A DNA stretch of 64,000 nt from assembly GCF_010500215.1 (NCBI RefSeq), contig NZ_JAAGOY010000007.1, positions 900,501-964,500 of the forward strand, given 5' to 3'. Below the pieces are notes generated by a model. That model made no database searches. It saw nothing but the letters and a program-made list of their open reading frames with translations, and was not told where the DNA came from. Within the stretch, counting starts at the first letter, position 1. The number at the start of each line of letters is the position of its first letter. The stretch comes from Aliiroseovarius sp. PrR006. GTDB lineage: Bacteria > Pseudomonadota > Alphaproteobacteria > Rhodobacterales > Rhodobacteraceae. A program made the position numbers and the translations under genes. This document shows, piece by piece, positions 10,294 to 44,827 of this stretch.

Positions 10294-12045
10294 TCAGGCC
10301 GCGGCGCGGGCTTTGGCTGTGGCGTCTTCGTCGATGGAAAGTGTGTCGGCGTCGGCAATGATCACGCCGTAATCCAGCCGCGCGCCTTCGATGGACACGA
10401 GGCCATTGCGGACGTCCTCGACCACCTTCAGGGGATCGCGTTCAAACGGGTTGCCAAAGCCGCCACCGCCGGGGTTCAGGTTGGCGGCGATCTCGCCGGG
10501 TTTGATGGTTTCGATCACGTTGTCGGTGATGATCTGGGTTTCGCCATCGCGGGTGATCTCAAGACGGCCAACCTTCTTGTGGACCATTTCGGATTTTGCC
10601 CCGGCGGCCCCCATGGCCGGAATGCGGCGCCCTTCGCCGAAGGTGACCAGCGTCATGTCGGTGTCCAGCGGCTCGACCGCCCAGCGTGTGCCGGATCCGC
10701 CGCGGAACTTGCCCGCGCCACCGCTGTCCTCCATCAGCCCATATTCGTGGATGATGATCGGATAAGAGTGCTCGAGCATCTCAATGTCGCCCGAGGTCAG
10801 TGCGCCAAAACAGCACTCCGGTCCGCAGGCGTGCCAGCCATCTTGGCTTGCCGTGGCGCCCGCGCCTGAGATGATCGAGGCCAGCACCATAGTGACGTAT
10901 TCTTCGTCATGGCGGCTATCCCACCCGGCAATGTTACACCCGTTGGCATGGCCCCAGCTGGCAGACACTTTGTCAGGCGCGGCCTGTTCAAAGGCCAGCC
11001 GCACCGCGTCGGTCAGCGTTTCCATTGGCGTGGTGGTGCAGTTCATATGCGGCGCGGGCGACTGCGCGTTGCACAGGGTGCCCTTCTTGCCCATATCGAC
11101 CGTCACGTTGCGATACAGCCCTTCGTTATAGGGCGGCGGCAACTGGGCAAACATCATCAGGCCCAAGTAAACACCTGAGTAGCTGTTCCCCTCGTAAGAG
11201 TTGATGAAATACGGAATCTGCGGCGGGCTTTCGATCTCGATATGGCAGCTGTCACCGGTGATCGTCACCGCCGCGGTGATGTCGAAATCACCAAAGCCGT
11301 GACCTGCATCTTCCAGAATGGCGGTCCCCGAATAGGTACCGTCAGGCACCTGACTGATCAGGCCGTTCATATGGGCGTTGGCCATGTCCAGCAGTTCGGC
11401 AATGCATTCCTGCACCACGTCCTTGCCGTATTTGTCCATCAACGCAGTCAGGTTGCGCGCGCCAACCTGACACGCTCCGATCAGCGCATTGAAGTCGCCT
11501 TCCTGATCGCGCCGCGCGCGCATGTTGGTCAGCAGCATGTTCATGATGTCATCGCGCGGAACGCCCTTGTCCCACAGCTTGATCGGCGGAATGCGTAGCC
11601 CTTCGGCAAAGATCTCTTTGGCTTCGGGGTTGTAGCCCGCAGGCACCGGCCCGCCGATGTCCGTCAGGTGCCCCTTGCAGACCGTCCAGAACACCAGCTC
11701 GCCTTCATAGAACACCGGGTAATACATGCAGGTGTCGATGATGTGGCTGCCACCATAGGCGGGATCATTGTGTAGGATCAGGTCGCCTTCATGGATGTCA
11801 CCCTCGAAGAAATTGGCGACTGACTTCATCGCCGGGATCAACGATCCAAGGTGAATCGGAATATCCTGACCCTGCAAAATCATCTCGGGTGTGTGGTTGA
11901 ACAGCGCCGTAGAATAATCATGCGCCAAATTGAAAACCGAGCTGCGCGCGGTCTTTTCTAGGGCCAGCGTCATTTCGCGCTGAGTGGTTTCCAATACGCC
12001 GCGCACCACCGAAAGCGTGATGGGGTCAACTTGTCTATTAGCCAT
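10294..12045 (-). CDS. hyuB: Hydantoinase/oxoprolinase family subunit B
   Basis: A 583-residue HyuB-type protein, first gene of the leftward operon. Family features include DPITLSVVRGVLE at the start, the HNDPAYGGSHIIDT stretch near residue 110, and the C-terminal Gly-rich PGGGGFGNPFERDP. I start at 12045 because AAAGGA lies 8 bases upstream; a longer in-frame start at 12072 has no ribosome site. It pairs with subunit A for ATP-dependent opening of a cyclic amide in the cytoplasm. The divergent AraC-family gene across the 272-bp gap probably controls it. Confidence 0.9.
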   Translation of the reverse strand: MANRQVDPITLSVVRGVLETTQREMTLALEKTARSSVFNLAHDYSTALFNHTPEMILQGQDIPIHLGSLIPAMKSVANFFEGDIHEGDLILHNDPAYGGSHIIDTCMYYPVFYEGELVFWTVCKGHLTDIGGPVPAGYNPEAKEIFAEGLRIPPIKLWDKGVPRDDIMNMLLTNMRARRDQEGDFNALIGACQVGARNLTALMDKYGKDVVQECIAELLDMANAHMNGLISQVPDGTYSGTAILEDAGHGFGDFDITAAVTITGDSCHIEIESPPQIPYFINSYEGNSYSGVYLGLMMFAQLPPPYNEGLYRNVTVDMGKKGTLCNAQSPAPHMNCTTTPMETLTDAVRLAFEQAAPDKVSASWGHANGCNIAGWDSRHDEEYVTMVLASIISGAGATASQDGWHACGPECCFGALTSGDIEMLEHSYPIIIHEYGLMEDSGGAGKFRGGSGTRWAVEPLDTDMTLVTFGEGRRIPAMGAAGAKSEMVHKKVGRLEITRDGETQIITDNVIETIKPGEIAANLNPGGGGFGNPFERDPLKVVEDVRNGLVSIEGARLDYGVIIADADTLSIDEDATAKARAAA

Positions 12046-12181
12046 TCGTTCTGGTCCTTTGCATGGGCGCAAAGGGGCCGCCTGATGAGAGCATCTGACC
12101 TCTCGATCCGGCGTGCTCCTCCTGCACGTCGAACTTGTGATCCCAGCTTGTCGCGACTTGTCGGGATCGTCTTGACGCTAA

Positions 12182-12269
12182 GTGCAGAAGCGTTTGCAAC
12201 TTTGTGCAGAACAATTTGCCGCTCAGCGCAGAACCGTTTGCAGCAGAGTGCAGAACATCCAAATTCCTT
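12182..12269. repeat. Four 22-bp direct repeats between hyuB and the AraC-family gene
   Basis: Units begin at 12182, 12204, 12226 and 12248, an exact 22-bp period, or about two DNA turns. The shared core is GTGCAGAA followed by C and GTTTGCA: unit 1 GTGCAGAAGCGTTTGCAAC, unit 2 GTGCAGAACAATTTGCCGC, unit 3 GCGCAGAACCGTTTGCAGC, and unit 4 keeps only GTGCAGAACA. Same-face spacing of direct repeats fits binding sites for an AraC-family activator. They sit 137 bp from the hyuB start and 49 bp from the regulator start. Confidence 0.85.
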
Positions 12270-12317
12270 TGTTTTATAGGGAGGCTTGGCTATGGTCAGG
12301 CTTGGGAGGAGACGCAT

Positions 12318-13271
12318 ATGACCGCCGAGTTCACATTCTCGACGGCCACGACAGAGCCGCAGCACCGCTCCAGTAAATGGAACGCGGTGGTAAACGATGC
12401 GTATTTTCCACTGGAACTTCAGTTCCGTGATCCCATCCATTTCAATGGGCAGCTGAGCCGGATGTCGATGGGGCATGTCGGCCTGTCCCGGCTGACGTCT
12501 GATCCGCTGAGTTACGAGCGGCGGCGCGCACATATCCGTGAGGCGCGGGAAGAAGAGTATTTAATCACCCTGCCACGCGCGACATCGGTCGAGTTCCGCC
12601 AGTTGGGGCGCGAAGTGCGGTGCGATCCGGGCGGCTTCATCCTTGAACGCGGCGACGAGCCATATCGGTTTCTCTATGAAAACCCCAATGACCTGTTCGT
12701 CCTGAAGGTCGGGCGCAAAGCGCTGGAAGAGCGTGTGCGCCAACCCGACCGCTTTTGCGCAAAAGTGTTCAATGCAACCTCTGGCACGGCTGGCTTGTTC
12801 GCCTCGATGGTGGATCAGGCCCAGTCGAAGTTTGCGGATTTCGGAGCGGCTGCGGGTGAAACCGTGGGGCGCCAGCTTTTGGAACTGCTTGGGCTTGCCC
12901 TTGACGAGACGGTCGACGCAAGTTCAAGCAATCTCTCTGCAGTTCGCACCGCACATATTTCTCGGGTCGAGAAATTCATCCGCGAGAACCTGAAAAACCC
13001 GAACTTGTCCCCCGATCTGATCGCCGAAAGCTGCGGTATCTCGAAGCGCTATCTGCATGACCTGTTCAAGGATGTGAATGGCACGGTCAGTCAGCAAATA
13101 CGGGATCAGCGCCTGATCGCAGCGCGGGATCGTCTGGCCTCTGCGCCCGGGCTTCCGATCTCGGAAGTATCCTATCGTTTTGGCTTTTCAGATCAGGCGC
13201 AGTTCTCGCGTTTGTTCAAAACCAAGTTTGGGATTACGCCATCTGCCTTCAAAGCAGAGATCAGCGGATAG
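12318..13271 (+). CDS. AraC-family transcriptional regulator of the hydantoinase locus
   Basis: A 317-residue protein with an N-terminal AraC-binding-like domain (about 20-200, including FRDPIHFNGQLSRMS) and a C-terminal AraC double helix-turn-helix (about 215-315) with LIAESCGISKRYLHDLFK and ISEVSYRFGFSDQAQFSRLFK. GGAGGA lies 8 bases before 12318 and fixes the start; the frame is open back to 12204 but that would translate the repeat region. Divergent placement beside hyuB and the tandem repeats between them suggest that it controls both promoters, probably in response to the operon's substrate. Confidence 0.9.
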   Translation: MTAEFTFSTATTEPQHRSSKWNAVVNDAYFPLELQFRDPIHFNGQLSRMSMGHVGLSRLTSDPLSYERRRAHIREAREEEYLITLPRATSVEFRQLGREVRCDPGGFILERGDEPYRFLYENPNDLFVLKVGRKALEERVRQPDRFCAKVFNATSGTAGLFASMVDQAQSKFADFGAAAGETVGRQLLELLGLALDETVDASSSNLSAVRTAHISRVEKFIRENLKNPNLSPDLIAESCGISKRYLHDLFKDVNGTVSQQIRDQRLIAARDRLASAPGLPISEVSYRFGFSDQAQFSRLFKTKFGITPSAFKAEISG

Positions 13272-37872: not shown

Positions 37873-40800
37873 AGTTTGACGACGCAACCCGCGCCCAGAT
37901 CCGCGCGGCGGACCCCACGGTCTCGACCTGGTTGTCGGCCAATGCGGGGTCGGGAAAAACCCGTGTTCTGACAGACCGCGTTGCGCGTTTGCTGCTGGAC
38001 GGCGTGTCTCCGCAAAACATCCTATGCCTGACCTATACCAAGGCCGCCGCAAGCGAGATGCAGAACCGTCTGTTCAAGCGTTTGGGTGAATGGGCGATGA
38101 AGGATGACGCCAGCCTGACGCAGGCGCTGACCGAACTTGGCGTTCAGGGCGCACGCGACCTGTCGCTGGCCCGTCAACTGTTCGCCCGCGCGATCGAAAC
38201 ACCCGGCGGTTTGAAAATCCAGACGATTCACGCCTATTGCGCCTCGCTTTTGCGCCGTTTTCCGACCGAAGCCGGTGTCTCGCCCCAGTTTACCGAGATG
38301 GACGACCGCGCCGCCAACGATCTGCGCGCCACGATTCTGGAACAGATGAGCGACGGGCCGCACAAAAGCTTGGTGCAGGATCTGGCGCAATTGTTCACGG
38401 GCGAAGACCTGATGCGGCTGACGGCGGGCATCACCTCGGCCCGGATGATGTACGCAGAAGACAAAGACGCGGCGCAAATCAGTAGTTGGTTTGGCATTGC
38501 CGCGGGCGACAGCTTGGACGCCATGCTTCAAGAGTGTTTTGCGCCGGATGATCTGGATGTGCTGGCGAAGTTCCGGGCGGGATCTGCGACCGGCAGTGCG
38601 CAGGATCAGAAGCGCGCCGAAGCGCTTCAGGGGGCAGATCTTTCCCAACCTAATCTGGATCTTCTTCAGCGGCTCGAAAAGATCTTCCTGAAGCAGTCTG
38701 CACCATTTTCCGCCAAGATAGGGTCTGTTCCGACCAAAGCGCTACAGTCCGGAGCCTGCGCACCGATCATGGATCAGCTGAATGATTTGATGGCGCGGGT
38801 CGAGGATGCGCGGCACAAGCGATTGGCCCTGCACAACGCGCGACGGACACAGGTTCTGTATCGTTTTGCACATGTTTTCGTACAGGAGTACGAGGCCGCC
38901 AAACTGGCGCGCGGCTGGCTGGATTTTGACGATCTGATCCTGAAGGCAGGCGCGCTTTTGACTGATCCGTCGGTCGCCGCGTGGGTGCTGTTCAAACTGG
39001 ATGGCGGCATCGACCACATTCTGGTGGACGAGGCACAGGACACCAGCCCCGTCCAATGGCGCGTGATCGACAGCCTTGCGCGTGAATTCACCACCGGATC
39101 AGGCGCCCGCGACGATGTGGAGCGCACGATTTTCGTAGTGGGCGACCCGAAGCAATCGATTTATTCGTTCCAAGGCGCAGAACCGGCCGAGTTTCAGCGC
39201 ATGCAGCACAGTTTTGCAGATCGCTTACAGCAAGTTGGGCGGGCGCTGGCGGTTCAGCCGCTGGAATACTCGTTCCGATCTTCACCTGCGGTGCTGGGGT
39301 TCGTCGATATGGCGCTGGAGGGCCGTTCGGGGCTTGGTGGCGGCTTCAAGCACCGGGCGTTTTTTGGCGATAAGCCCGGGCGCGTGGACCTTTGGCCATC
39401 GATCGATCCCGTAAAGCACGAGGAAGACCGCGATTGGAACGATCCCGTTGACCAACCGTCGCCGCGCGATCATCGCGTGCAGCTGGCGGATAACTTGGCG
39501 GATGAAATTCAGCGGATGATCCGCGAGGAACGCTTGCCCGACGATAAAGGGGGTTCGCGCCCCGTTGATCCGGGCGACATTCTTGTGCTGGTCCGGTCTC
39601 GAAGCGAGCTGTTTCACGAGCTGATCCGCGCCTGCAAAGCGCGGGACATTCCGATTGCTGGGGCGGACCAGCTACGCATCGGGGCCGAGCTGGCAGTGAA
39701 AGATCTAACTGCCCTTTTATCGTTCCTTGCCACGCCCGAGGATGATCTGTCACTGGCTACGGTGTTGCGCTCGCCCTTATTCGGGTGGAGCGAGGATGAC
39801 CTGTTCCGACTGGCCCATTATCGCGGCAAGAAGACCTTCCTGTGGCGCGCCTTGTCAGATCAGCCAGAGCAATATTCCGCAACGTTAGAGACACTTCATG
39901 ACCTGCGCGACCGTGCGGATTTCTTGCGGCCTTACGAGCTGCTGGAACGTATCCTGACCCGTCACGATGGCCGCAAAAAACTGCTGGCGCGACTGGGACA
40001 AGAGGCCGAGGATGGCATTGATGCGCTGCTGCATCAGGCGATGAATTATGAGCGGCTTGAGATCCCCAGCCTGACCGGTTTCATCACGTGGTTGGAGACA
40101 GGCGACATCACGATCAAGCGGCAAGTGGACAGCAAAGGTCATCTGGTGCGGGTTATGACGATCCACGGATCGAAAGGGCTTGAGGCGCCGATTGTTTTGC
40201 TGCCGGATTTGGCCGCACGGCGCGCCTCGGACCCGCCGCAGGTTGGTAAATTGTCGCCTGATCAGCCTTTCTGGTTCCCGGCAAAAGCCGACCGGACCGA
40301 GGCGATTGACGAAGTGGCTGAGAGCCTGAAAGAGGCCGAGATCGAAGAGCGCACGCGGCTTCTGTACGTCGCCATGACCCGCGCCGAGCAGTGGTTGATC
40401 CTTGCCGCCGCCGGGGACCTTGGGAAAGCCGATACCGGATGGTATCGCGTGGCCGAAGCCGCGATGGAACGCGCGGGTGGGGCTGATTGCGCCTTCCCGA
40501 CCGGTACGGGCAAGCGCTATGCCACAAGCGAGTGGCCAGAACCGGGGGTGAACGACCCCACCGCGCAGGATGCCGAGCAGCCCCACCTTCCAGATTGGCT
40601 GACCACGCAGGCCGCACCTCCGGTGAGCGCGCCCAAGCCACTGTCCCCGTCCGATCTGGGCGGCGCGAAGGCGCTTCCGGGTGAGGCGGAGCTGGCGGAC
40701 GGGCAGGATCCGTTGATCCGCGGGCGTCAGATTCACGCGCTTCTGGAACATCTTCCAAATGTTGCCCCCGAGAGCTGGGCGGGCGTAGCCCAACACCTGC

Positions 40801-41270: not shown

Positions 41271-41591
41271 ATGGCAACCGTCGCTGTCACCGATGCCACC
41301 TTTGATGAAGAAGTCCGCAACGCGGATGTTCCCGTTGTTGTAGATTTCTGGGCCGAATGGTGTGGCCCTTGCAAACAGATCGGCCCGGCTTTGGAAGAGC
41401 TGTCGACCGAGTATGAAGGCAAGGTCAAAATCGTGAAGGTAAACGTGGACGAAAACCCGAACTCGCCAGCCCAAATGGGCGTGCGCGGCATTCCGGCGCT
41501 GTTCATGTTCAAAGACGGTCAAGTGATCTCGAACAAAGTTGGCGCTGCACCGAAAGCGGCCCTGCAGTCGTGGATCGACGAAAGCGTCTGA
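41271..41591 (+). CDS. trxA: Thioredoxin
   Basis: A 106-residue thioredoxin with the active site WCGPC at residues 30-34, [13 protein letters not shown], the cis-Pro loop [11 protein letters not shown] and a Lys-Gly-type end. It is the general disulfide reductase of the cytoplasm. TAGGAGAA lies 9 bases before the start. The gene follows addA by 33 bp. A 97-bp structured repeat begins 20 bp after the stop and contains the likely terminator. Confidence 0.96.
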
Positions 41592-41611: not shown

Positions 41612-41708
41612 AAAAGCCCCGCAAATCGCGGGGGGGTATAGAGATATCCGACAGAAAATAATCTGTGGATCTCAATTTGGAGCTCGCGCAGCAATGTGCG
41701 GGCTCTTT
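41612..41708 (+). repeat. 97-bp structured repeat, left copy
   Basis: This block matches the reverse complement of 44106-44201 with five substitutions and one single-base gap, about 94% identity. Hairpin 1 is CCCCGC-AAATC-GCGGGG; hairpin 2 is CAGA...TCTG; hairpin 3 is GAGCTCGCGCA paired with TGTGCGGGCTC over a GCAA tetraloop, followed by CTTTATCTTTT. It begins 20 bp after trxA and hairpin 3 is a good terminator for that gene. The only differences in hairpins 1 and 3 between copies fall in loops. Confidence 0.92.
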
Positions 41709-41842
41709 ATCTTTTGGACCAGCCGTTCGAGAAATGCCTACTTCAAGCCCAAGAAAGACCCTGTTCTTGCTTCATGGCCGGTTCCCATCTCAGGTCGGCT
41801 GATAGAACGCGATGCTTGGCTCACACCTAGAGCATCCGATAA

Positions 41843-42540
41843 CTAGGTCAGCCGCGAAAACCGTCGGTTGGATTTGGGCCAATCCACCCCCATCGCAATT
41901 GTGACCAGCAATCCCAACGCAATTGATCCTGACACTAATGACATAGTTAATCCGGAGTTTTGCATGTCCGGTGGAGCGCTTTGCAGCATGGTCAACACAC
42001 TACCCAATGCAAAGATTGCTACTGATACCCACTGACAGAGATTAAGCGTGCCAAAAACAGGAGTTTGCGGTTCACCGCGATAGGCTTCTTCGACAAAGCG
42101 CGCCAAGCTGCTGAGTATCAGATAGCTTCCTGCTATCGCGCTCCAAGGAGCCCCGATCAACAGCAATCGCAGCAATACCAAGCCAATCAAAATATTGCCG
42201 ATTATTGAGTAGAGCGGAGTCGGGTGCAGTGCCTGGCCACCCAAATGCGCAATTTGGCAAACCCGAGAGCGAGCATGGCGATAATGTATCCCCATGTTCT
42301 CTTGTGTCTTAGAGCCGTGGCAACGCCCCTGCACCAGGCAACGCAGGCGCCCAGTGGCTTGTATCCATGGTGCCGCCACGCACAGCGCCGCCATTAGCAG
42401 GGTGACATCCTGATCGAAAAATACCTCAGCCAGGACCACCCCCACAGTTGCCCCAGAACACCCCCATAATAGCCGAAGGGGCGGAGTAGCTTATCTGAAC
42501 CATTGACAAACTGCCCCCAAAGCCCAGCGGAGAGCAAAGT
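41843..42540 (-). pseudogene. Frameshifted Lgt-like (prolipoprotein diacylglyceryl transferase family) gene
   Basis: The downstream part (41843-42445) encodes about 200 residues with membrane helices and Lgt-family patterns: GRLRCLVQGRCHG, ALHPTPLYS and LARFVEEAYRGEP. Directly upstream, in a different frame (42540 to about 42455), the same protein continues as LLSAGLWGQF and PFGYYGGVLG, which fits the Lgt region before the first motif. One missing G in the GGGG run near 42453 would join the two frames. The 5' end is also cut short at the neighbouring gene. The GTG at 42445 could start a truncated protein, but I regard the gene as broken. A true Lgt is expected elsewhere. Confidence 0.7.
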
Positions 42541-42552
42541 TGAAAACCCTAT

Positions 42553-43138
42553 ATGGGTCGCGCATTTCTCATTGCTGCTTGTTTGACGTTATTGGCGTGC
42601 GGCCAATCACGCGCGCAAGAGTGGACCGAGCTAAAACAGCACCGAATTGACCGCTTCGAGATTTCGCTTCCCACCGGGGGATACTGGTATGAGCAAAGTG
42701 GAGCGGGCGAAAGATGGGTCAACGTTTCGCGCCGGATAGATACCGCTGAGGGCGACCTATATGTTTGGGTCGGTTTCGAGGTAAATAGCCACCCCGAAAA
42801 CCGATACGATTGGCTTCCGGCCGAGGTCTCGCGAGAAGTGCGCGACGTTCAAGCAATAAAAATTAGTCCAAGAGGCAGAAAAAATTGGAAAACCGCTCTC
42901 TGTTCTCAAGTACGGAGAGAACGTTTCGTCAAGTCCTACTGGCTATTGGCTGGTTTGGGCTCGCCAAACTTTTATCGAGCAACTCGGGAGCGAAGTGCCA
43001 GAGTATCAAGAGCTTCATGTTTTTCTCTCCGACGACCACAATGCGGATTTTAAGCACATGGCTGTGTACTTCGGAGTTTATTGTTTGGCTGATTGCACAA
43101 CGGATTTCCCATCCGCAAATTACTCAGGCCACTACTAG
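42553..43138 (+). pseudogene. Frameshifted gene for an exported protein of unknown family
   Basis: The first frame starts MGRAFLIAACLTLLACGQSRAQ, a signal peptide (a lipobox-like LLAC is also present), and reads sensibly to about ISPRGRK near 42880. Around the A run at 42878-42884 the coding sense moves to the next frame, which continues GKPLSVLKYGENV, YWLVWARQTFIEQL and HVFLSDDHNADFKHM before a TAG at 43138. In the first frame, sequence after that point is Arg- and Ser-rich and unlike protein. A single-base indel in the A run explains this. The family is not recognised. Confidence 0.65.
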
Positions 43139-43414
43139 AAACGGTGGCGATAAGTGAATTCGATGAATGAACTTTTCGGGCTCACCCTGGCCACCTGAGG
43201 CTTTCAGTCCGGTTTTTGAGCCATGGTGATGCCCTAGCAACCGGGGCGCGGGACGGTTCAGACATTTAAAGTAGGACGTCAGCCCGGATTCCAATGCCGA
43301 AGCCAAAGTAGGGTCGAACTGGAAATACCTATTGCGTTGCCTTTGGTCGATGGCTTTCGTTCATAGTGGCGGCGACTCATCCGCTCAGAGGCAAATCTTC
43401 ATGCGGTCTGAAGA

Positions 43415-43876
43415 TTACTCAGTTACATTATATCCTTGTCGAGCGAACTTTATCGCATCAATGAATAGTAAAAGCTCATAACTTACTGATGGGTTGCAGA
43501 TTTGAGTTTCCAAGCAATTCGCCGACCGATGACCCAGTTCGATGTCGCCATAGGAACTAGTCTTGCTAAATCTAAACGTCATTCTACCCAAGCACGCCCC
43601 GTTTCGTCTGGAAGCCTCCACTTTGACTAAAAATTTTCCCTTGGAATTGGCAATTACCTCAAATCCTTCTCGCCCCAAGGATGCTACGGCATTTGAGCGA
43701 ACTTCCTCAATATTCGTCCAACAACCGTTGGTCGCCAGATCTTCAATTTTGACTTCAACAGGACCGAAGGCTTCAGGCGTCAAGCGCTTGGAAACATGCT
43801 GAGTAACTTCGCGGTCGAAGGCCATAGCAGACGACGCAGCGATGATTGCTGCCATCGTAACGTAGATCTTCTTCAT
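43415..43876 (-). CDS. Exported protein of unknown family
   Basis: A 153-residue protein with a signal peptide (MKKIYVTMAAIIAASSAMA, then FDREVTQ). The mature part is beta-rich with four cysteines (NGCWTN, NGACLG, SANCLETQIC) that could form two disulfides. I do not recognise the family. I start at 43876 (MKKIYV); an ATG at 43909 would place a charged stretch before the signal. Codon use is less GC-rich than in neighbouring genes, in keeping with its position inside the repeat-bounded insert. It is the only intact gene in that insert. Confidence 0.7.
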   Translation of the reverse strand: MKKIYVTMAAIIAASSAMAFDREVTQHVSKRLTPEAFGPVEVKIEDLATNGCWTNIEEVRSNAVASLGREGFEVIANSKGKFLVKVEASRRNGACLGRMTFRFSKTSSYGDIELGHRSANCLETQICNPSVSYELLLFIDAIKFARQGYNVTE

Positions 43877-44105
43877 GGTCGTTTTTTCCCTTCTTGCCCC
43901 AAATACCATAGCACGAAGCAGACCAACTCGACTTGATTTAGGTCATTCATCCCTGGACGTCAGAAGCCCCGTCCTTCCACTCTGCGGCGTGATACATCGG
44001 TGCTGAGAAAGCGCGGCCTTTCGCTGTGTAGACACACTACGCCACCAGTTGATCGGCTGCTCTGGGCTCAAAGCAAATCTTCGCAGGGTGGAGAGATAAA
44101 ATTGA
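43877..44105. other. Non-coding stretch inside the insert
   Basis: Together with the right repeat copy this makes a gap of about 350 bp. No gene, strong promoter or hairpin is seen before the repeat begins at 44106. Short open frames here have no ribosome site and no protein-like sequence. Confidence 0.5.
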
Positions 44106-44201
44106 AAAGAGCCCGCACATTCCTGCGCGAGCTCCAAATTGAGACCCCCAGATTATTTTCTGCCGGATATCTCTATACCCCCCGCGAATTGCGGGGCTTT
44201 T
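44106..44201 (-). repeat. 96-bp structured repeat, right (inverted) copy
   Basis: This is the reverse-complement partner of 41612-41708. In gene orientation it begins 24 bp after the stop of the minus-strand L,D-transpeptidase gene, the same arrangement as the left copy after trxA. Hairpin 1 has loop AATTC instead of AAATC, and hairpin 3 has a GGAA tetraloop instead of GCAA, both loop-only changes. The end GGGCTCTTTTC followed by T-rich sequence fits an intrinsic terminator. Confidence 0.92.
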
Positions 44202-44224: not shown

Positions 44225-44827
44225 TCAGATCAACAGAACCTGCGCGCCGTTCTTGGTCAGTTCAAAAAGCTCGGCGATGTGTTCGTTATAAAGGCCAATG
44301 CAGCCATTCGAAGACTGACGCCCGATCTTGCGCGTGTCGTGGGTCCCGTGAATGCGATAGTATTTCCACCCCAGATACAGCGCATGGGTGCCCAGCGGGT
44401 TGTCGGGGCCGGGACCAACAAAGGACGGCCATTCCGGGTTCCGCTTGCGCATCGCAGGCGTCGGCGCCCAAGACGGACCTTCCACCTTGCGGATCACGCT
44501 GGTACGACCACGGCGGGTCAGGTCTTCACTGAGTGGGACCGAAGTCGGATACAGGCGGTAAACCGACTGATCTTCCGACCAATAATGCAACACCCGCGAA
44601 CTGATATCGACCAAAATAACACCGTTCTTGGTGTTGCTGAAGTAGGGCTGCCAGTCCAACGTCCGGAAGCTGGAAATGTTGCGCTTCACCACTTCGGTCA
44701 AGTCGCGCTCAACCGCGGTTGAGTTATCAAACTGTGCAATCGCAGGCGACGCCACACCGCCCGCAGCGGCAGCAACACCTGTCAAAAACGTACGACGGCC
44801 AATCTGTGTTTTGGGGGTGTCACTCAT
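44225..44827 (-). CDS. Tat-exported L,D-transpeptidase
   Basis: A 200-residue YkuD-type enzyme. The N terminus is a twin-arginine signal (IGRRTFLTGVAAAAGG, cleavage after ASPAIA). The catalytic motif is IHGTHDTRKIGRQ...SSNGCIGLYNEH with the nucleophile Cys in NGCIG. It makes or edits 3-3 cross-links in peptidoglycan, or links proteins to it. Tat export of a YkuD protein is common in Rhodobacterales. A CAP-domain lipoprotein is divergent from it, and a second L,D-transpeptidase follows at 45543. Confidence 0.93.
   Translation of the reverse strand: MSDTPKTQIGRRTFLTGVAAAAGGVASPAIAQFDNSTAVERDLTEVVKRNISSFRTLDWQPYFSNTKNGVILVDISSRVLHYWSEDQSVYRLYPTSVPLSEDLTRRGRTSVIRKVEGPSWAPTPAMRKRNPEWPSFVGPGPDNPLGTHALYLGWKYYRIHGTHDTRKIGRQSSNGCIGLYNEHIAELFELTKNGAQVLLI

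Follow-up and report, generated by a model that had tools for sequence, protein, structure and literature searches.

The stretch of DNA analysed here, 64,000 nucleotides of contig NZ_JAAGOY010000007.1 from Aliiroseovarius sp. PrR006 (hereafter the window), includes an insert bounded by long inverted repeats between trxA and the L,D-transpeptidase gene ldt, and the question raised by this locus is what kind of element the insert is and how it came to lie there. A first-pass annotation, made from the window alone, had described the boundaries as an unknown repeat. Casposons are transposons with an integrase homologous to Cas1, and are thought to be ancestral to the integration step of clustered regularly interspaced short palindromic repeats (CRISPR). 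The insert is very probably a casposon that lacks Cas1 and is either non-autonomous or decayed.

The inverted pair is real. In an alignment of 97 columns the outer blocks are reverse complements apart from five substitutions and a gap of one base, as had been claimed. The outer 20–21 bp of each block are a copy of a host terminator hairpin, made up of a target duplication and its flank, and do not belong to the element. The element itself spans positions 41633–44181 of the window (2,549 bp) and has terminal inverted repeats (TIR) of 76 bp each, the left (41633–41708, forward strand) starting GGGGTATAGAGATATCCG and the right (44106–44181) lying on the reverse strand, with 4 differences between them (72 of 76 positions identical). 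Directly outside lie the two 14 bp copies of the target, CCGCAAATCGCGGG on the left (41619–41632, forward strand), within the host terminator hairpin, and CCGCGAATTGCGGG on the right (44182–44195, forward strand). The flanking host genes, trxA (41271–41591, forward strand) and ldt (44225–44827, reverse strand), are convergent. The GC content of the insert is 51 %, against 61 and 58 % in the two flanks and 59 % in the whole window, in line with the earlier remark that the interior is less GC-rich than its surroundings. In the host genome, full copies of the repeat are found only at these two places, together with one 27 bp match to the terminator end, and a search for a 17-mer with up to three mismatches returned the 2 exact matches and two with three mismatches, while a reversed control pattern returned 5. 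The reading of the interval as a scar flanked by two copies of some dispersed element is not supported, as there is one pair in the genome and the flanks are a single duplicated target.

Comparison with the genus revealed the site without the insert. The sample consisted of 21 genomes including the host, and trxA and ldt were matched at E 1e-30 in all of them. In 16 of the 20 congeners the two genes are convergent, free of any insert and 73–86 bp apart, measured between the protein matches with both stop codons counted; by the same measure the distance in the host is 2,639 bp. In the other four (G001, G008, G014 and G019) trxA and ldt are not adjacent. Matches to the 121 bp repeat region stop within its first 34 bp, the terminator part, in all 20 congeners. 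The check that had been proposed for an old local duplication, namely a search for relatives carrying the same interval with intact genes, thus returned empty sites. All 16 intergenic stretches contain one GCCCCGC-loop-GCGGGGC hairpin with an A-tract before it and a T-tract after it, although in the more distant species the arms were read by eye and a strict stem count by script is low. The presence of a single bidirectional hairpin in every empty stretch indicates that a single bidirectional intrinsic terminator was the landing site of the insert. It had been pointed out that each repeat begins 20–24 bp after a stop codon, in the same orientation relative to its gene; this observation stands, and it is explained by insertion into one terminator common to two convergent genes.

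The ends of the insert were found in other genomes. When 394 genomes of the family were searched with the 83 bp core of the repeat, one other inverted pair was detected, in a metagenome-assembled genome of the Rhodobacteraceae (G212), at places 28939 (forward) and 39775–39845 (reverse) of one contig, with 79–80 % identity over 71–77 bp. Five weak matches of 20–24 bp (in G338, G071, G095, G381 and G103), four of which lie in the inner terminator part, were dropped. An exact scan for the 17-mer in the genome_contigs set (84,980 species) gave 33 stretches, where about 30 are expected by chance in 257 Gb; five of the 33, in three records, were in a TIR context and the other 28 are chance matches. 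The true ends were those of G212 (as JABURR010000043.1), both ends of an element in Ruegeria atlantica HKCCD9103 and one end in Hirschia sp. SP140, the second end of which was located separately. The Ruegeria ends are 77–78 % identical to those of the window element over 102–108 bp, and the Hirschia ends 90–93 % identical over 28–30 bp. When one mismatch was allowed in the family scan, 6 of the 394 genomes had matches (8 places), with pairs in the host and G212 only; the single places in G103, G321, G333 and G402 had no TIR context. Among plasmids, the 121 bp TIR region matched 7 records, all of them short matches to the two terminator parts, and none of 10 matches to a 16-mer in IMG/VR had a TIR context. 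The count of repeat copies that the first-pass annotation had called for stands at two in the host, with further pairs in G212, Ruegeria and Hirschia. What had been taken for an unknown repeat is instead the TIR of bacterial casposons, homologous to the ends of elements that carry both Cas1 and PolB.

The G212 element is 10.9 kb long and encodes Cas1 (PF01867, E 7.9e-38), a B-family DNA polymerase (PF03175, E 4.1e-8) and an HNH-like protein that falls below the cut-off. The elements in Ruegeria (11.1 kb) and Hirschia (16.9 kb) encode homologous Cas1, PolB, HTH-type and HNH-type proteins, with E-values of 2.4e-33 and 1.1e-37, respectively, for Cas1 against PF01867. Relative to the Ruegeria proteins, Cas1 is 63 % identical in G212 and 47 % in Hirschia, and PolB 68 and 56 %. 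The Ruegeria PolB matches PF03175, while the Hirschia protein, without a Pfam match below 0.01, is identified as PolB by homology. The conserved small protein, to which Pfam assigns no family, is presumably the HTH protein of casposon maps. Of the solved structures, 6opm (E 9.6e-29) is nearest to the Ruegeria Cas1; it is that of the Methanosarcina mazei casposase, with active residues E162, H232 and E247 (PMC6977970), which in an alignment assigned by eye correspond to E, H and E residues shared by all five Cas1 proteins. Searching 385 genomes of the class for Cas1 yielded three more. Two of these, G536 (ends GGGGTATAGCTATCG) and G766 (ends GGGGTA(T/G)AGCGAAGGG), contain casposons with PolB and the HTH-type protein, whereas G553, with a partial Cas1 frame and no ends or duplication found, was excluded from the counts. 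The two TIRs match without a difference over 76 bp in G212 and over 107 bp in Ruegeria, and the two ends of the Hirschia, G536 and G766 elements agree over the last 17, 15 and 6 bp only. In each of the five larger relatives Cas1 and PolB lie between TIRs flanked by a 14–15 bp duplication and, judged by sequence, these are casposons as defined in PMC4046053.

Cas1 was also sought in mobile DNA. None of 7 matches to the Cas1 pattern in viral contigs was a relative, phage records gave one Cas1 match at 26 % and plasmids two CRISPR-type Cas1 at 30 %. In Bradyrhizobium sp. 2S1, plasmid pBsp2S1b (L127, about 12001–12349) contains a Cas1 piece that shares 52 % identity with the Ruegeria casposase; no gene is listed over it, and IS66 elements lie beside it. 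Searching with GGGGTATAG and one mismatch gave no TIR pair there, and the piece is perhaps a broken casposon. The larger elements also carry other genes. The G212 cargo (L065, 2735–7267) includes a KAP NTPase matching the PADLOC candidate PDC-S20 (8.9e-74) and a Schlafen/NB-ARC protein, which look like defence cargo on a casposon. The Ruegeria casposon (L086, 120–4244) encodes a 1,374 aa protein with an N-terminal HTH and a weak PADLOC match (2.2e-4), and the Hirschia casposon (L104, 934–5187) has open reading frames (ORF) resembling HlyD and a peptidase-ABC exporter and a small ORF, read by eye as an export cassette.

The target duplications agree with those of casposases. With the start of the element set at GGGG, the duplication is 14 bp in the window (12 of 14 positions identical, 2 mismatches), 14 bp in G212, Ruegeria and Hirschia and 15 bp in G536 and G766, all five of the latter exact. 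Other lengths between 12 and 18 bp give at least seven mismatches in the window and at least five in every element. Purified casposases duplicate 14–15 bp (PMC6614799 and PMC6977970).

Five of the six targets are hairpins. Palindromy was scored as complementary pairs around the centre of the duplication against 50,000 positions drawn at random from the flanks, giving P values of 0.0007 (window), 0.00002 (G212), 0.0006 (Ruegeria), 0.0004 (Hirschia), 0.0017 (G536) and 0.37 (G766, the exception), which are rough since the flanks comprise only 4.7–21.8 kb and the score was fixed after the palindromes were seen. An initial score (P 0.48 for the window) had been replaced because it was unable to handle odd loops. 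No element was picked by its target, although the ends of G536 came from a search for inverted repeats that was aided by its palindromic target. In the window, G212 and Ruegeria the target is a terminator hairpin that has A- and T-tracts and lies between convergent ORFs, the right-hand ORF in Ruegeria being unannotated (178 aa); the G536 target is a C6-ATCAA-G6 hairpin. In Hirschia, the target is a hairpin in a sequence repeated several times nearby. This target, CCCAGTTTTCACTGGG, is present at five places (L104 and L106: 764, 17687, 17891, 19214 and 20760), one of them with two mismatches and two of them the duplication itself, and the repeated sequence is a possible reservoir of targets.

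The insert carries two broken genes and one exported orphan, as had been described. A fragment resembling lgt (41843–42445, reverse strand) belongs to the prolipoprotein diacylglyceryl transferase family and covers profile positions 94–239 of 240, the first 93 being absent; it had zero matches at E 0.001 among the 20 congeners. An exported-protein gene (42553–43157, forward strand) is apparently frame-broken, with ORFs at 42553–43053 and 42885–43157 that overlap in different frames. For the intact orphan (43415–43876, reverse strand; 153 aa), a sample of 197 other genomes of the family contained weak relatives in 3. Neither the interior DNA nor the orphan matched anything in plasmids, and defence models matched none of the three proteins. 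Judged against the genomes sampled from the genus, the cargo is foreign, and part of it is broken. No transposase, as had been noted earlier, and no recombinase was recognised among the ORFs of the insert. Rfam gave two matches in the region, both far under the gathering scores. An integron attC reading, prompted by the hairpin-rich repeat, was rejected as the copies are inverted and serve as transposon ends elsewhere.

Several points weigh against identification of the insert as a casposon derivative. Among its ORFs neither cas1 nor polB, the genes that would make a casposon autonomous, was recognised, nor any recognisable HTH or HNH trace, and without such core genes the link to casposons rests on the ends and the target. 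The length of the duplication by itself proves nothing, since published integrated casposons have duplications of 1 to 27 bp (median 15), often overlapping the TIR (PMC4046053). G/C runs at the junctions blur the border, and starting the element at GGG would give 16 bp in the window as it does in G212, Ruegeria and Hirschia; the border is placed at GGGG because the flanks of G766 are not G-rich, and only G766 fixes it. The inner part of the TIR may match because terminators resemble one another, but the conserved outer 18 bp lie outside the detected terminator-like hairpins. The two mismatches between the window's target copies mirror each other, each being a T-to-C change at the same place relative to its TIR, and would also fit a 3 bp duplication, AAT, with a longer TIR. 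That alternative applies to the window alone and is disfavoured by the relatives, in which the TIRs agree but the flanks do not. The mirrored pattern could have arisen by two changes or by gene conversion acting on the inverted ends. Compared with the AAATT loop seen in some close congeners, each copy (41619–41632 and 44182–44195) carries one such change.

If the insert is a casposon derivative, it may have reached its present form in two ways, by transposition in trans or by loss of the core genes in place, to which we give similar weight. To the first, which had already been suggested as a mobile element moved in trans, our data add a pair of casposon ends without a casposase gene. Deletion in place, with a chance just below even, would mean that a full casposon landed here, subsequently lost cas1, polB and the other core genes by internal deletion and never moved as a short element. 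The cargo is decaying, there is one copy only in the genome, and 4 of the 76 TIR positions differ, against none in G212 and Ruegeria, suggesting an old copy; yet no fragment of a core gene is recognised in the 2.5 kb, and cargo occupies the interval. Movement in trans in the present short form, as a non-autonomous casposon with passenger genes, has a chance somewhat below even. It would account for the complete ends and duplication, the foreign cargo and the lack of core-gene remnants, but there is no second copy, PF01867 matched nothing in the host genome (99.88 % complete; 9 of 14 controls gave a match), and neither the exact 17-mer scan of genome_contigs nor the one-mismatch scan of the family found another Cas1-less pair.

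It is very unlikely that the insert derives from an ordinary insertion sequence (IS) with long TIRs, a DDE transposase and a preference for terminators. A-AAT|CGCGGGG...CCCCGCG|AAT-T is a possible reading of the junctions, and IS and miniature inverted-repeat transposable elements (MITE) make short duplications of 2–9 bp. Such a 3 bp duplication fits the window copy alone and is contradicted by the relatives, since the bases outside GGGG vary by site in G212, Ruegeria and Hirschia, where the 14 bp duplications are exact (16 bp at GGG), and the integrase-type gene common to the five larger elements is cas1. Least credible is an invertible segment in which the 97 bp repeats are the recombination sites of a switch: inverted repeats of this length can recombine and the mirrored changes could reflect gene conversion, but these repeats are transposon ends elsewhere, no recombinase is recognised inside and a promoter scan for one promoter type finds none in the region. 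Flipping, also raised in the first-pass annotation, is a possible side effect of the repeats that nothing requires.

The ends of this putative casposon derivative contain terminator-like hairpins of their own. A terminator scan of the window found seven candidates, against a shuffle mean of 4.2 (standard deviation 1.8). The four with the longest stems were two inward-facing hairpins of 12 pairs in the TIRs, one at 41679–41706 (forward strand) with a T-rich tail and one at 44108–44135 (reverse strand), and two outward-facing ones formed by the target copies with the host T-tracts (41617–41633, reverse strand; 44180–44196, forward strand). The inner hairpin is retained in the TIRs of G212 and Ruegeria: four pairs vary with pairing kept, one of them through changes in both bases, and a single sequence has one broken pair, but this covariation is weak as it comes from four sequences, two of which are the two ends of the window element. 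No such shared inner hairpin was seen in the ends of the Hirschia, G536 and G766 elements. As splitting a bidirectional terminator removes the T-tract from both genes, the inward hairpins could replace it and may have taken over termination for trxA and ldt.

We propose that a casposase would recognise the ends of the window element and join the two GGGGTATAG... ends to the target at staggered positions that lie some 14 bp from each other and span the hairpin of the one bidirectional terminator shared by convergent trxA and ldt, and that repair would then duplicate the 14 bp. The enzyme could have been supplied in trans by a casposon since lost, or by the element itself, as a complete casposon from which the core genes disappeared afterwards. 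Transcripts of trxA and ldt would subsequently be terminated by the inward hairpins of the TIRs. While the TIRs differ at 4 of 76 positions, the fourfold-degenerate sites of ldt differ by 25–31 % from those of the two nearest congeners, which fits insertion after the split from these congeners if the ends started identical.

Casposons are proposed ancestors of CRISPR adaptation, and the choice of target by a casposase bears on the origin of the CRISPR repeat; here, five of six related elements, one of them apparently a Cas1-less derivative, lie in hairpins that become duplicated palindromes. More tentatively, and with the balance leaning against it, the alphaproteobacterial casposons might be a group that aims at hairpins, mostly terminators between convergent genes, with a spare inward terminator in the TIRs that keeps the neighbours terminated, and the window element might be a Cas1-less member moved in trans. 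The duplicated target would then be a short palindromic repeat made by Cas1 without Cas2, like a CRISPR repeat, and the preference for palindromes could predate CRISPR. The words "terminator" and "non-autonomous" are absent from the main text of PMC4046053, PMC6614799, PMC6977970, PMC9939771 and PMC10359463; Cas1-less casposons or terminator targets may nevertheless be reported already. Passages of PMC6452270 apply "non-autonomous" to other transposons. The arrangement suggests how a transposon might insert into a terminator and yet cause no read-through into the adjacent genes.

Among known systems, MITEs and terminal inverted-repeat miniature elements (TIME) are non-autonomous elements of the DDE type. 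The window element resembles them in having ends without a transposase, as if moved in trans, and differs in that its ends and duplication are of the casposon type and it carries passenger genes. Closer are the bacterial (family 3) casposons, reported for example in Henriciella marina, Nitrosomonas AL212 and Streptomyces albulus, some of which have palindromes inside the TIRs and overlap between TIR and duplication (PMC4046053). Like these, it is bounded by TIRs with a target duplication, and its larger relatives have Cas1 and PolB, with HNH and HTH genes as well in G212, Ruegeria, Hirschia and G536, although placement in family 3 is by gene content and taxonomy. In contrast to family 3, it is only 2.5 kb long, has neither cas1 nor polB and lies in a terminator hairpin. 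With the archaeal family 2 casposons of Aciduliprofundum boonei and M. mazei it shares a 14–15 bp duplication and insertion at the 3′ end of a gene, and its Ruegeria relative has a Cas1 related in sequence to their casposase (6opm), but those casposons target the 3′ ends of tRNA genes, where the target comprises a motif, CC or CGCA, together with sequence upstream of it (PMC6614799 and PMC6977970), whereas here the duplicated stretch itself is the hairpin. In M. mazei a symmetrised target was as effective as the original (PMC6977970), and the A. boonei casposase recognises the palindrome of the tRNA-Pro T-loop (PMC9939771), and these two cases are precedents for palindromes at or near the targets of casposons.

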